Positions 12,046-17,348 of a stretch of DNA of 35,865 nucleotides are shown here, piece after piece (within the stretch, counting starts at the first letter, position 1; the number at the start of each line of letters is the position of its first letter). Both the position numbers and the translations under genes were made by a program. Under the pieces are notes generated by a model, which worked only from the letters and a program-made list of their open reading frames with translations, searched no databases and had not been told where the DNA came from. The stretch is from Gammaproteobacteria bacterium (lineage in GTDB: Bacteria > Pseudomonadota > Gammaproteobacteria > Steroidobacterales > Steroidobacteraceae), in the NCBI GenBank assembly GCA_009926865.1, contig RFOD01000023.1, forward strand, positions 1-35,865, read 5' to 3'.

Positions 12046-12480
12046 TCATGCGTCGCTGCGTGGGCAGATCTCGATGCCACGGAAGAAATACGCGATCTCG
12101 GCGGCCGCCGTCTCGGGACCATCCGAACCGTGCACGGTGTTCGCTTCGATGCTCTCGGCGAGATCCGCACGAATCGTACCCGGATCGGCTTTCTTAGGAT
12201 CGGTTGCGCCCATGATCTCGCGATTTTTGGCGATGGCGTTGTCGCCCTCGAGCACTTGCAACATCACGGGACCCGAGGTCATGTACGTCACGAGGTCGTT
12301 GAAGAACGGACGCTCACGATGCACCGCGTAGAAGCCCTCGGCTTCGGCTTTAGACAGGTGAACCATCCGGGCAGCCACAATACGTAGGCCGGCTTGCTCA
12401 AAGCGACGGTACACCTCGCCAATCAAATTACGGGCCACACCATCAGGCTTAACAATTGAAAAAGTGCGCTCGAGCGCCAT
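12046..12480 (-). CDS. ndk: Nucleoside diphosphate kinase
   Basis: Ndk balances NTP and dNTP pools by phosphate transfer through an active-site histidine, here His117 in [12 protein letters not shown]. Family motifs [12 protein letters not shown] and [14 protein letters not shown] are present and the length is 144 residues. The ATG at 12480 is preferred because GGAAGG lies about 9 bases upstream. An ATG at 12489, three codons earlier, would abut that ribosome-binding site. Confidence 0.96.
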
Positions 12481-12521
12481 GGCAGTCATCCTTCCGTTGG
12501 GTGAATAAAGTAAAGCCCGCT

Positions 12522-12568: not shown

Positions 12569-12904
12569 TCAGGCAGTGGGGTCGACCGTGAAACTCTCGC
12601 CACAGCCGCATTCGCCTGTGACATTCGGATTACGGAACTTGAACGCCTCGTTGAGGCCCTGCTTGATGAAATCCACCTCGGTGCCGTCAATCAGGGTCAG
12701 ACTGTCCGGATCGACAAACACCTTGACCCCACGATCCTCAAACACCTGATCGTCCGCTCTGGCCTCATCGGCGTAGTCGATCACGTAGGCAAACCCCGAG
12801 CAACCGGTCTTACGGACCCCCAGCCGCAAGCCCTCGCCATGACCACGGTCCTGCAGGTGACTGCGGACTCGGGCGGCGGCACTATCGGTCAGGGAAATGG
12901 CCAT
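12569..12904 (-). CDS. iscA: A-type iron-sulfur carrier IscA
   Basis: IscA receives and delivers Fe-S clusters. The 111-residue protein has all three ligand cysteines at the standard positions: Cys35 in KTGCSGFAY, and Cys99 and Cys101 in ECGCGESF. It resembles IscA more than ErpA in overall sequence ([24 protein letters not shown]). It follows the fused cysteine desulfurase by 49 bases. iscU, hscB, hscA and fdx, its usual neighbours, are absent. Confidence 0.93.
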
Positions 12905-12953: not shown

Positions 12954-14420
12954 TCAAGCTTGCTTGCAGGCCTGACGCAACGCATCTTCCACCCGCAATA
13001 GCCGCCCAAGCTTCTCGGCGGAGATATGGTGGCGTTCGGCCCAGTCGGCAGGCGTGCCCACTTTGAGCGACTCGACCCATTGACCCGGTAAGACCTCGGC
13101 GAGCTCATCGAGCACACGCTGCACGTCGGGACATACGAAGGCGCGAAATTCGATCGCGTGGACTTTCCCCGCTACATCGCGCTGGACGTAGCAGCGCACA
13201 CGACAGCCCTCGCGGATAGAACCGGCCTCGCCCACCTGCCATGGGATGGATCCGCGCGCCGGAGGCTCGCCTGGCTGGTCACGCTTGCGCAGACGGGGCA
13301 CCACCTCACTGATTGCGCGAGCGGCCTCGAGCGCCTCCTCACGGGTGTTACCGCGACCAAAACTCACTCTCAAGGTCGATTGCGCCCACTCCGGGGCGAT
13401 GCCCTGCGCCCGCAAGACATAGGACGGCTCACCGCTCGTCGAATCGCAGGCCGCTCCCGTGCTGAGCGCAAGCTGCGGTAAGGCGGCCAGTAAGCTCTCT
13501 CCCTGTACGCCCTCTACAGTCAAAGACACTAAGCCTGGTAGCGCGTATAGGGGATGATCATTGAACTGTAAGCCCGCGAGTGCGGCTAAGGCTTGCTTGA
13601 ATTCTTTGACGAGCGTCTTGAGATGCGCAGTATCGGTCTCACGCAAGGATCTCGCTCGGCGCGCCGCCACCCCCAGCCCGACAATCTGCGCGGTGGGTAG
13701 CGTGCCGGGGCGTAGTCCACGCTCTTGACTACCACCGCGCATGAGCGGAACGAGCCAGGGCCGAACTCGCTCAGACACATAGAGCGCACCGATTCCTTTG
13801 GGACCGTAAAACTTGTGCGCCGAGATCGATAATAAATCGACCCCCCATTTCCCCGCCTCGATCGGGATCTTGCCGACCGACTGGGCGGCATCACAATGAA
13901 AAAAAATGTCGCGCTCGCGACAGAGCGTCGCGAATTGCGCAATATCCTGCACTACGCCTGTCTCGTTGTTGGCATGCATGATCGACACCCACTGGGTATC
14001 GGCTCGCAAACGCGACACAAGATCCATGGAACTGATCCGTCCATCGCGCTGCGGCTCAATCCAACTGATGGTATGCCCCTGCTTACTCAAAGATTGCAAG
14101 ACTTCAAGCACCGCTTTGTGTTCGGTGCGCGAACTGATGCCATGGCGACCAAAATCCGCTCTGCCGCGCGCAAGGCCCTGCAAGGCGAGGTTATTCGCCT
14201 CAGTCGCACCAGAGGTAAAAATGATGCCTTGTGGATCCACCCCAATGAGCGCTGCCAGTTCAACCCTCGCCTCCTCAATCGCCTCGGCCGCTGCGCGCCC
14301 ATACGCATGCGTCACCGCCGAAGGATTGCCGATGCCCGCTGGACTCGCCCAACAGGCTTGCATTGCGGTGATGACCTCAGGGTCCAGCGGCGTGCTCGCC
14401 GCATGATCAAGATAAATCAT
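12954..14420 (-). CDS. IscS-type cysteine desulfurase fused to a C-terminal IscU-like domain
   Basis: Residues 1-380 are a group I (IscS/NifS) cysteine desulfurase, which takes sulfur from cysteine as an enzyme-bound persulfide. The PLP lysine is Lys203 (SAHKFYGPKG), the PLP-stacking His is His101 (TEHKAV), and the catalytic Cys325 sits in the loop GAACDSTSGEPSYVLRA. Residues about 390-488 replace the normal IscS tail, the part that binds IscU, with a domain that aligns by eye to IscU/NifU-N: a GKVHAIEFRAFVCPDVQ strand-turn with one Cys (430), then PGQWVESLKV, then EKLGRLLRVEDALRQA. Only Cys430 clearly matches an IscU ligand; Cys406 is offset by one, and the His-Cys pair and LPPVK motif are replaced. 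Its ATG overlaps the trmJ stop. The desulfurase is secure; the IscU-like assignment is inference. Confidence 0.85.
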   Translation of the reverse strand: MIYLDHAASTPLDPEVITAMQACWASPAGIGNPSAVTHAYGRAAAEAIEEARVELAALIGVDPQGIIFTSGATEANNLALQGLARGRADFGRHGISSRTEHKAVLEVLQSLSKQGHTISWIEPQRDGRISSMDLVSRLRADTQWVSIMHANNETGVVQDIAQFATLCRERDIFFHCDAAQSVGKIPIEAGKWGVDLLSISAHKFYGPKGIGALYVSERVRPWLVPLMRGGSQERGLRPGTLPTAQIVGLGVAARRARSLRETDTAHLKTLVKEFKQALAALAGLQFNDHPLYALPGLVSLTVEGVQGESLLAALPQLALSTGAACDSTSGEPSYVLRAQGIAPEWAQSTLRVSFGRGNTREEALEAARAISEVVPRLRKRDQPGEPPARGSIPWQVGEAGSIREGCRVRCYVQRDVAGKVHAIEFRAFVCPDVQRVLDELAEVLPGQWVESLKVGTPADWAERHHISAEKLGRLLRVEDALRQACKQA

Positions 14421-15208
14421 GATGGATCATCCTGTGCTCGGCCGGTCTCGGTCGCGCGTTGGCCGGCCATCCGTCGTTTTTGCTGCACCGCCGTCAAGAA
14501 GCCACGCAAAATATTGACCTCGTTTTGATCCATATCCGTGCGACCAAAGAGCCGACGCAATCGCGTCATGAGACTGGTGCCGCCTTGCGTGCGATCACGA
14601 AAGCCCACGTCGTTCATGACTTCTTGCAGATGCGCATAGAACTGTTCGATCTGCTCGGCTGTCGCCGGCGGAACAACCGTAGGCGCAGCGGAAATCTTAG
14701 TGCCTCGCGCACGCAAGATTTCGTAGCTCACGATCTGTACTGCCATCGCTAAATTCAAGGACGCGTATTCCTCGCTGGTAGGAATACGCAATAACGCGTT
14801 CGCCTGAGCCAACTCCTCGTTGGATAACCCCGCGCGTTCGTTACCAAACAAAAAAGCCACGGGACTTTGACGCCCCACATCGTGGGCTCGTTCCGCAGCC
14901 TCCTTGACGTCCCAGACGCGGAAATTATGTTCACGCTCGCGCGAGGTCGTCCCGATCACCAAGGCACAATCGGCGATCGCGGCCTCGACTGAATCAACCA
15001 CCCGGGCGCTGGTCAGCAGATCCGTCGCACCCGAAGCCCGCGCGCTCGCCTCACTGTGCGGAAAGCTTTTCGGTCGGACTAGGACCAAATCCCGCAGCCC
15101 CATATTCTTCATCGCACGCGCCACCGCGCCGATGTTGCCGGGGTGAGAGGTTTCCACCAACACGATGCGAATCTGCGCGGGGGGATGAATGTCAGTGGGT
15201 GCGGTCAT
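14417..15208 (-). CDS. trmJ: tRNA (cytidine/uridine-2'-O-)-methyltransferase TrmJ
   Basis: TrmJ is a SPOUT methyltransferase acting on position 32 of several tRNAs. SPOUT motifs are visible: IRIVLVETSHPGNIGAVARAM at the N-terminus, LFGNERAGLSNEEL in the middle, and the knot YASLNLAMAVQIVSYEI. The ATG at 15208 gives 263 residues starting MTAPTDIHPPAQ. The frame stays open a further 178 codons upstream, but that stretch is antisense to suhB and has no family similarity. It is divergent from suhB (45-base gap), as in other gammaproteobacteria, and starts the isc-ndk-der gene string. Confidence 0.94.
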   Translation of the reverse strand: MTAPTDIHPPAQIRIVLVETSHPGNIGAVARAMKNMGLRDLVLVRPKSFPHSEASARASGATDLLTSARVVDSVEAAIADCALVIGTTSREREHNFRVWDVKEAAERAHDVGRQSPVAFLFGNERAGLSNEELAQANALLRIPTSEEYASLNLAMAVQIVSYEILRARGTKISAAPTVVPPATAEQIEQFYAHLQEVMNDVGFRDRTQGGTSLMTRLRRLFGRTDMDQNEVNILRGFLTAVQQKRRMAGQRATETGRAQDDPS

Positions 15209-15253
15209 GGCGCGTGATATTCTAGCCCTCTTTCGGTTTCGCTCTTTGACAGC

Positions 15254-16051
15254 ATGCAAGCACTTCTCAATATCGCCGTGCGCGCCGCACGACGCGCCGC
15301 AGACGTTATCGTTCGCAGCCTCAATCGCCTCGACTCCTTGGAAGTCACAAGTAAGGGTCGTAATGACTTTGTGACCGAAATCGATCGAACGGCCGAAGCC
15401 GAGATCATCCAAATCATTCGTCGGGCCTATCCTGATCACGCCTTCCTCGGTGAGGAAAGCGGCGCCATCGGCGACAGCCCTTTTCAGTGGATCATTGATC
15501 CACTCGATGGCACCACCAACTTTCTGCACGGGTTTCCGCAGTTTTCGGTCTCGATTGCCTGCAGTATCCGCGGGCGGATCGAGCATGGCGTGATCTATGA
15601 CCCCATGCGACAAGAAGTGTTCACAGCCTCCCGGGGCGAGGGGGCGCAACTCGAAAATCGACGTATCCGTGTCACCCAACAGCGAGGATTGGAGGGTGCG
15701 TTGATCGGCACAGGTTTCCCCTATCGCGCCAACACCGATCACATTGATGCTTACATGGCGATGCTACGAGATGTCATGCTGAGCACTGCGGGCGTCCGTC
15801 GCCCAGGCTCTGCCGCGCTGGATTTGGCCTATGTAGCCGCTGGCCGCACGGATGGTTTCTTTGAGATCGGACTGGGGCCTTGGGACACGGCCGCGGGATC
15901 ACTCCTGATCGAAGAAGCCGGTGGGATTGTGAGCACGCTCGCGGGCGACGACTATAAACAAGGTGGCAATATCATCGCCGGCACGCCGCGAGTACATACT
16001 GCGCTCGTGCAATTATTGGCGCCGCATCTTACCCCTGCACTGAGGGACTGA
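15254..16051 (+). CDS. suhB: Inositol-1-monophosphatase family protein SuhB
   Basis: SuhB is an inositol monophosphatase homologue that in E. coli also works in rRNA transcription antitermination. The Mg-binding motifs are intact: GEESG (Glu67-Glu68), IDPLDGTTNF (Asp82, Asp85) and GPWDTAAGSLLIEEAGG. Length is 265 residues, normal. Its final 23 bases overlap the end of the convergent symporter gene. Confidence 0.95.
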   Translation: MQALLNIAVRAARRAADVIVRSLNRLDSLEVTSKGRNDFVTEIDRTAEAEIIQIIRRAYPDHAFLGEESGAIGDSPFQWIIDPLDGTTNFLHGFPQFSVSIACSIRGRIEHGVIYDPMRQEVFTASRGEGAQLENRRIRVTQQRGLEGALIGTGFPYRANTDHIDAYMAMLRDVMLSTAGVRRPGSAALDLAYVAAGRTDGFFEIGLGPWDTAAGSLLIEEAGGIVSTLAGDDYKQGGNIIAGTPRVHTALVQLLAPHLTPALRD

Positions 16052-17348
16052 CTCGCTCGTCTTGATCGACGACCGTACAGATCGCTAGATCCGCACCGAC
16101 ATTCACCATCGTGCGCGTCATATCGAGTAATCGATCTGCACCGAGCACGATACCGATCCCTTCAGCGGGCACACCAAAGGTGATCAGCAGGCCGGCAATG
16201 ATGGGCAAAGAGCCGCCCGGAATACTGGCGACCGCAACCGCGCCGAGCACGGCCAAGACCAGCAACGTCAGCTGTTGAAATAAATCGAGCGGCACGCCAA
16301 ATACTTGAGCCACAAAGAGTACGACACAACCCTCATAGAGCGCGGTCCCAGCCATGTTCATGGTGGCCCCGAGCGGCAAGACAAACCCCGCTGTCGGTGC
16401 GCTCACCCCCAATCCCATCCGCGCAGCCGCCAAAGACGTGGGCAAGGTGGCGCTACTGGAGCTCGTTGAGAACGCGGTGATCATCGCCGGTCGTATCGCC
16501 TGCCAAAAATCCTTGACCGATACCTTAGAGAACAGCTTCACCCAAAGACTCATGACACCAAAGAGATGTAGCAGCATGACGGTAATGCAGCCTACGACGA
16601 ACACACCGAGGGCAATCAAAATATCCCAACCGATCTTGACCACCACGCTGAAAATCATGGCGGGCACCGCATAGGGCGCAAGCTTCAGAGCAAAGCGTAC
16701 GATGCCGGTCATGAGCTCGGAGATGACCTCCAGTCCATCGTGCAGACGAGCGCGTCGGGTATCGGTCAGGCGCAGCGCCGCCGCCCCCACCAAAATCGAA
16801 AATAGAATCAGCGGCAAGACCTCACCGAGTCCGCCTCGATCGAAGCCGGCTACAGCCCCGAGCAAATTACGCGGCATGAACATGTCGACCAAGGTCTGCA
16901 AATTCATGTCGGGTTGCTGCGCCTGACGCTCGATGTGCCCGGCCGAGAGCCCACCATACTCTTCGATCAAACGATCTTTGGTCCCCGTATCCAGTGTGGC
17001 GCCCGGCTGGACCACGTTCATCATGACAAGACCGAGCGCGACGCCGATCGACATGTTGATCGCAAAGAGACCAAAGGTCTTACCCGCGAGGGGTCCGAGT
17101 CGGGATAGGTCACTGAGCTGCGCGACGCCTAAGGCCAGCGAGGCAAAAACCAAAGGCATGACCACGAAGAAGAGCAAGCGCAAAAAGACCTGGCCGAGTG
17201 GATCGAGCACCTGCACCGAAAGCCAGCGGGCGGCATCGAGCACCTGGGGAGCGGCCGCACCCACCAATAAGACGAGCGCACCGGCGACTGCGCCGAACAC
17301 TAGACCCCAAAGAATTCGATTCGCAAGCCTAGGATCAAAATCGGCCAT
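16029..17348 (-). CDS. Dicarboxylate/amino acid:cation symporter (DAACS family)
   Basis: This is a multi-pass inner-membrane secondary transporter for C4-dicarboxylates or acidic amino acids, coupled to Na+ or H+. The 439 residues contain the family's serine-rich re-entrant loop (AFSTSSSSATLPTSL), the GFVLPLGATMNMAGTALYEG segment and the C-terminal IVLGADRLLDMTRTMVNV region with the substrate-contacting Asp and Asn. The exact substrate (aspartate, glutamate, succinate) cannot be read from sequence. It begins 15 bases after secF, so it may be co-transcribed with the Sec genes, an unusual partner. It converges on and overlaps suhB. Confidence 0.9.
   Translation of the reverse strand: MADFDPRLANRILWGLVFGAVAGALVLLVGAAAPQVLDAARWLSVQVLDPLGQVFLRLLFFVVMPLVFASLALGVAQLSDLSRLGPLAGKTFGLFAINMSIGVALGLVMMNVVQPGATLDTGTKDRLIEEYGGLSAGHIERQAQQPDMNLQTLVDMFMPRNLLGAVAGFDRGGLGEVLPLILFSILVGAAALRLTDTRRARLHDGLEVISELMTGIVRFALKLAPYAVPAMIFSVVVKIGWDILIALGVFVVGCITVMLLHLFGVMSLWVKLFSKVSVKDFWQAIRPAMITAFSTSSSSATLPTSLAAARMGLGVSAPTAGFVLPLGATMNMAGTALYEGCVVLFVAQVFGVPLDLFQQLTLLVLAVLGAVAVASIPGGSLPIIAGLLITFGVPAEGIGIVLGADRLLDMTRTMVNVGADLAICTVVDQDERVSPSVQG

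Follow-up and report, generated by a model that had tools for sequence, protein, structure and literature searches.

Analysis of contig RFOD01000023.1 (GenBank assembly GCA_009926865.1), a stretch of 35,865 nucleotides from a gammaproteobacterium of the family Steroidobacteraceae (order Steroidobacterales) referred to here as the window, identified an open reading frame (ORF) that encodes an IscS-type cysteine desulfurase with a C-terminal tail which is, almost certainly, a degenerate IscU. Among the IscU ligands C37, D39, C63, H105 and C106, this tail keeps only C63. With about even confidence, and by analogy with SufE, we propose that this IscU, metal-free and with a single cysteine, has become a sulfur partner of the desulfurase to which it is fused and would act as a SufE-like relay. 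The parts of the fusion gene are as follows.

12954..14420, reverse strand: desulfurase-IscU fusion ORF, 488 amino acids (ORF list, translation)
13287..14420, reverse strand: IscS-type cysteine desulfurase domain, residues 1-378 (Pfam, NCBIfam and structure matches)
13812-13814, reverse strand: Lys203 codon of the desulfurase (invariant in 38 aligned fused proteins)
13446-13448, reverse strand: Cys325 codon of the desulfurase (invariant in 38 aligned fused proteins)
13239..13286, reverse strand: linker, residues 379-394, at the place of the IscU-touching C-terminal helix of canonical IscS (AlphaFold2 model, missing canonical C-terminus; docking role from PMC2854127)
12957..13238, reverse strand: degenerate IscU domain, residues 395-488, three strands and three helices (AlphaFold2, Protein Data Bank matches, profiles)
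13131..13133, reverse strand: Cys430 codon, putative acceptor of the persulfide, at the position of Cys63 in E. coli IscU and Cys95 in human ISCU2 (kept in 49/52 tails from the order)
13002..13013, reverse strand: Lys470-Leu-Gly-Arg473 codons, equivalent to IscU K103, I104, H105 and C106 (Lys retained, Gly-Arg in place of His-Cys)

IscU ancestry and predicted fold of the tail

The desulfurase part matched Pfam Aminotran_5 (expectation value, E, 6.2e-75) and NCBIfam IscS (E 1.2e-120), yet its score of 403.3 bits lies below the equivalog cut-off of 643.2. The closest structures to this part were human NFS1, E. coli IscS and a Legionella enzyme, and searches with the full-length model in Foldseek and VIA returned matches mainly to it. 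A preliminary description made from the sequence had read the N-terminus as a complete IscS with Lys203 and Cys325, and both the pyridoxal phosphate lysine and the loop cysteine were indeed present within the Aminotran_5 fold. It had also held that the usual IscU-docking tail of IscS is replaced, in agreement with a pattern search for the canonical C-terminal segment (SPLW...G.DL), which was absent from the fusion protein. The same pattern was found in 15/15 canonical IscS sequences, in 0/52 from the order and in 2/9 of those outside the order that accompany a degenerate IscU.

The AlphaFold2 model of residues 395-488 had a predicted local distance difference test (pLDDT) score of 94.3 and a predicted template modelling score of 0.85, and 28/28 of its Protein Data Bank matches at E<=0.001 were IscU, ISCU or Isu1; no SufE occurred among the 50 matches listed for the tail structure searches. 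The tail gave no Pfam match (E up to 0.1) and no NCBIfam match (E up to 0.01), and a profile of 20 canonical IscU sequences, which reached E<1e-3 for 37 of 52 tails, scored this one at E 0.075, which is not significant among them. A second profile was built from 26 separately encoded relatives without any fused row, and its E-values refer to these small sets. It recovered 26/26 fused tails, this tail at E 4.4e-22, and 20/20 canonical IscU sequences at 4.9e-26 to 7e-30. Since one profile detects both the tail and canonical IscU, the alignment with IscU that the preliminary description had made by eye was correct and goes beyond chance, and the structure prediction it had called for likewise gave an IscU fold, with matches at E<=0.001 all of IscU type. 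IscU ancestry is established here from sequence profiles and a predicted fold, which together rule out a chance resemblance. The tail is also not a copy of SufU, since SufU has its own gene at another site in the genome and carries the motifs CGD, GKGC and VKC.

Conservation in fused and separate relatives

A desulfurase match was obtained in 60/60 genomes of the order that were searched, a few of them partial or SufS-like only. Eight genomes (G005, G008, G012, G021, G030, G038, G053, G054) do not enter the residue counts because their locus was truncated, incomplete or not found. In the 52 readable loci the IscU-like domain was fused in 26 and formed a separate ORF in 26. As half of these genomes carry a separate gene after iscS, and similar genes occur outside the order, a tail of this kind is not confined to the fusion. 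Within the genus, 18/19 other members with a readable locus were also fused (exception G017), which rules out an assembly artefact of this single genome.

Residue counts over the 52 tails showed C37 in 0/52, D39 in 0/52, H105 in 1/52 and C106 in 2/52 (L035, L059), with Arg at the C106 place in 37/52. In comparison, the C63 equivalent was present in 49/52, a figure free of selection because these loci were located through the desulfurase and not through a tail pattern, and the residue that follows it was Pro in 52/52. The equivalent of the IscS contact residue K103 (Lys470 here) was kept in 48/52 with Arg in 2, and E111 and D112 were each kept in 50/52. The N-terminal Tyr was absent from 26/26 fused forms and kept in 21/26 separate ones.

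These counts bear on the ligand assignments of the preliminary description. Its match of Cys430 to an IscU ligand holds, the ligand being C63; its His-Cys pair does read Gly-Arg (Gly472-Arg473), and LPPVK reads ISAEK as it stated for this species. Its placement of Cys406 one residue away from a ligand was mistaken, as this residue sits at the D39 place and not one off C37. Of the three cysteines whose conservation in homologues it had wished to see, Cys430 is well conserved, Cys410 occurs in 16/18 aligned genus members at IscU position 43, which is not a ligand place, and Cys406 occurs in 1/18. Position and genus alignment together rule out Cys406 and Cys410 as metal ligands. Conservation of the tail itself, on which the fusion reading had been made to depend, was found, above all at the Cys430 position.

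An altered scaffold, in which the tail still binds metal or cluster through other ligands, might be suggested by the retained fold, by the extra thiols of Cys406 and Cys410 in this species, and by copies with more ligands, namely L035 and L059 with C106 and two loci outside the order that are described below. We regard it as very unlikely given that C37 and D39 were lost in 52/52 tails, H105 in 51 and C106 in 50, that the two extra cysteines are placed and distributed as above, that HscB (0/60) and frataxin (0/24) were not found in genomes of the order, and that the fused forms lack the N-terminal Tyr, which drives IscU dimer and cluster formation (PMC8617193).

The ratio of non-synonymous to synonymous substitution (dN/dS) in the tail was 0.07-0.48 in the seven closest pairs, indicating that its sequence is under constraint. 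Over 234 usable of 276 pairs, the tail evolved faster than the desulfurase, with a median dN/dS of 0.43 vs 0.24. This faster rate and the absence of the IscU ligands are what would be expected of a functionless remnant in decay that persists because it is part of the reading frame. Such decay is highly improbable in view of tail dN/dS values <0.5 in 7/7 closest pairs, eight residues invariant over 52 aligned tail rows that were partly chosen by pattern, and a separate open frame kept in 26/52 genomes, although openness was built into that search.

The rows just mentioned derive from a named collection in which 89 loci were confirmed and 80 kept, found by two patterns, one with the Cys and the other with the Lys and Arg. 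Record titles named Steroidobacteraceae, Nevskiaceae and mostly unassigned Gammaproteobacteria or Proteobacteria, and 49/80 loci had a frame of >440 amino acids, and no fewer than three of the shorter frames (L092, L099, L143) look like truncated copies of the fused gene. The alignment of fused proteins comprised 37 of the 49 named ones plus the window protein (38 rows) and the tail alignment 51 of the 80 loci plus the window protein (52 rows); because the search patterns contained Cys, Lys and Arg, invariance in both is partly the result of selection. One record titled as a metagenome-assembled genome of Klebsiella pneumoniae (L149) carries the fused gene, and its title very likely reflects a mislabelled bin.

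Beyond the order, a profile built from 33 of the 50 tails available at that stage, the two already recognised as lacking the Cys being excluded, matched 170/274 genomes of the class at E<=1e-5. The 30 best-scoring loci were fetched, of which 28 lay outside the order and comprised 19 canonical IscU and 9 degenerate copies beside iscS, the latter in other families of the class; 9/28 is no estimate of frequency because the fetched loci were the best-scoring ones. Two of the degenerate copies differ in what they retain: L161 (G449), beside iscS, has lost C37 and D39 and kept C63, H105 and C106, and L165 has kept D39 and C106 and lost C63. In an IscS tree of 76 rows, obtained by a quick method, a single change divides the desulfurases that accompany a canonical IscU from those that accompany a degenerate one (Shimodaira-Hasegawa-like approximate likelihood ratio test support 93). 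Five changes are required to account for the fused label, of which well-supported branches force 3, and losses may be among them.

Pfam NifU_N still scored above its cut-off for 4/4 separate ORFs tested and was matched in 191/196 genomes of the order, many with two matches including the gene beside iscS (e.g. G051, G045). In the sorted list of these matches only two exceed 113 bits. These two genes (G096:C115:3339-3710 and G103:C28:92923-93294; L183, L184) encode IscU at canonical score, 174-179 bits, with the next match at 112, and no match to IscS, HscB, HscA or Fdx was obtained within the 9 kb read near them.

The proposed persulfide relay and its alternatives

The genome of the window organism contains, in a row, genes for Rrf2, a SufB-type protein, an ABC ATPase, a SufD-type protein, a SufS-type desulfurase, an intact SufU and FeS_assembly_P, and thus has a separate SUF system able to build clusters. 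SufE (PF02657) had no match in this genome nor in the Pfam scan of the fusion protein, and was found in 9/60 genomes of the order. Partners of a working IscU scaffold were sought alongside its LPPVK motif (ISAEK here): HscB and frataxin were not found in genomes of the order in the searches given above, which genome-wide did not include HscA, ferredoxin or IscX. Outside the order HscB was present in 1/9 genomes with degenerate IscU (G469) vs 13/14 with canonical IscU (Fisher p 0.0002, kinship not corrected), 14 of the 19 canonical genomes having been searched for HscB and TusA, so that loss of HscB tracks the change in IscU. In G469 a second profile match sits beside its HscB on contig C11.

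We propose that the cluster-building site of IscU was dismantled and that the tail would now be dedicated to its own desulfurase, fused here and encoded by the adjacent gene in relatives, working like SufE or SufU and not as a scaffold. The Cys325 loop would hand persulfide to Cys430 of its own chain or of the other subunit in the dimer. At the C106 place, Arg473 may steady the thiolate or persulfide, and sulfur would then move onward from Cys430 to a client. We infer this transfer because the C63 and K103 equivalents are kept, Arg stands at the C106 place, and a single Cys and a single Arg are conserved in SufE-like proteins (PMC11408855). Canonical IscU docks near the IscS C-terminus and its sulfur is expected to come from that subunit; its contacts with IscS include Lys59-Gly64 and Lys103; for E. 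coli, a disulfide between C63 and Cys328 of IscS is cited; and C63 lies about 4 A from C106 (PMC2854127). The preliminary description had suggested self-contained sulfur transfer, or service to tRNA thiolation or another acceptor, and the genome evidence is compatible with this.

One candidate client is MnmA, which forms 2-thiouridine at tRNA position 34 (s2U34). A relay dedicated to this route, from IscS through Cys430 to MnmA in place of TusABCDE, would be a special case of the proposed transfer. In 24 genomes of the order (G000-G015, G037-G044) MnmA gave a strong match (E<1e-20) in 21 and a weak one in 3, with TusA in 1/24 (0/16 within the genus) and DsrC/TusE in 0/24, which accords with such a relay. 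We nevertheless consider this dedication unlikely, since degenerate IscU and TusA occur together in 7/9 outside genomes, the YrvO-MnmA precedent works without a relay (PMC5372745), and SUF, ThiI and thiamine synthesis are other possible clients. TusA exceeded its cut-off in 2/41 genomes of the order and in 14/14 canonical ones, with weak matches in three more genomes (G031, G036, G259).

Several observations weigh against sulfur transfer through Cys430. Given the 7/9 outside genomes above, TusA loss tracks the order and not the IscU change. The C63 equivalent is missing from 6/61 degenerate copies, being Asn in L047, Pro in L049 and Gly in L063 (3/52) within the order and Asp in L159, Asn in L165 and Gly in L167 (3/9) outside it. 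Cys325 falls within the sole stretch of the monomer model with pLDDT <50 (324-328). From the literature, a disulfide of Cys37 is cited for Azotobacter and the first acceptor in E. coli is ranked as Cys37 before Cys63 (PMC2854127); B. subtilis YrvO supplies MnmA directly (PMC5372745); and the acceptor of human ISCU2 is Cys138, the lost C106, while its Cys95 receives no sulfur and showed none in the C138S variant (PMC11021402). Iron binding by Cys95 was offered by those authors as a possible reason, which we would argue does not apply to a metal-free tail.

Alternatively, the degenerate IscU may be a non-catalytic adaptor that fills the IscU-docking face of IscS or alters its shape. It could thereby stabilise IscS, regulate it or determine which partners it binds, and Cys430 would be a structural remnant. 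This is a real rival because human ISCU2 uses the lost cysteine and some lineages have dropped Cys430 as well, and we hold it as a tentative explanation. It accords with retention of the domain in the copies without the cysteine, with the contact Lys103 in 48/52 tails and with loss of the canonical C-terminal docking segment of IscS in the same lineages; the human result on Cys95 (PMC11021402) also favours it. Against it stands the Cys, one of the best-conserved residues in the domain (49/52) even though its metal partners have disappeared. The copies L047, L049, L063, L159, L165 and L167 are natural controls for the role of the Cys430 equivalent.

As to the origin of the proposed transfer, it is possible, though we hold it at somewhat less than even confidence, that in a large clade of the class, where SUF took over cluster building, IscU was retained and became a metal-free transpersulfurase of IscS with a single cysteine. 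The SufE/SufU function would then have arisen once more, here within ISC and on a desulfurase of IscS type, before fusion to IscS took place, apparently several times.

Gene neighbourhood and comparison with known systems

The gene order at the locus was trmJ, fusion gene, iscA, ndk and rlmN, and no hscB, hscA or fdx was present between iscA and ndk at this locus.

12569..12904, reverse strand: iscA, next downstream, 49 bases past the fusion stop codon (Pfam, NCBIfam)
12046..12489, reverse strand: ndk, after iscA (Pfam, NCBIfam)
14417..15742, reverse strand: trmJ, upstream, its end overlapping the desulfurase start by 4 bases (Pfam, NCBIfam)

The first ~160 residues of the listed trmJ frame overlap an inositol monophosphatase-type gene on the opposite strand (15254-16051), and the frame probably extends too far at its 5' end, with the true start downstream. 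A sodium:dicarboxylate symporter gene (16029-17348, reverse strand) sits between the inositol monophosphatase gene and secF, and it shares 23 bases, tail to tail, with the monophosphatase gene.

The wide conservation of IscU reflects the role of its ligands in building the cluster. Many lineages surveyed here keep IscU beside the desulfurase without these ligands, at differing degrees of loss, and thereby provide natural mutants for the debate on which IscU cysteine is the sulfur acceptor for IscS. They also exemplify a scaffold reused after a pathway switch to SUF. Because NifU_N still recognises the separate copies, they may be annotated as ordinary Fe-S (iron-sulfur) scaffolds and mislead pathway reconstruction. 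No description of a ligand-less IscU in these bacteria, or of such an IscS-IscU fusion, occurred among the titles and opening lines of abstracts listed in searches of the open-licence PMC literature, which omits most subscription papers.

The tail resembles IscU/ISCU2 (NifU_N, PF01592) in its predicted fold, its place after iscS, its C63 equivalent, Lys103 and E111-D112-A113, and differs in the missing C37, D39, H105 and C106, the altered LPPVK, the fusion to a desulfurase, the absence of the N-terminal Tyr in fused forms and the failure to find HscB and frataxin in the order. Unlike SufU, which needs zinc bound with its acceptor Cys (PMC11408855) and is present in the genome besides, the tail does not have a metal site of Cys and Asp ligands. 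SufE/CsdE share with it a single acceptor Cys (a proposed one in the tail), a conserved basic residue and a desulfurase partner (PMC11408855), but belong to another sequence family, and SufE serves type II desulfurases whereas the enzyme here is IscS-like. The degenerated A-type domain of NfuA has lost a ligand cysteine and is still needed in vivo (PMC8593673), although the protein families differ. The CD-Rhd fusion of Pseudorhodoferax, like the proposed relay, naturally joins a cysteine desulfurase to a sulfur-acceptor domain and is bifunctional there, but its acceptor is a rhodanese and not an IscU (PMC8931425).
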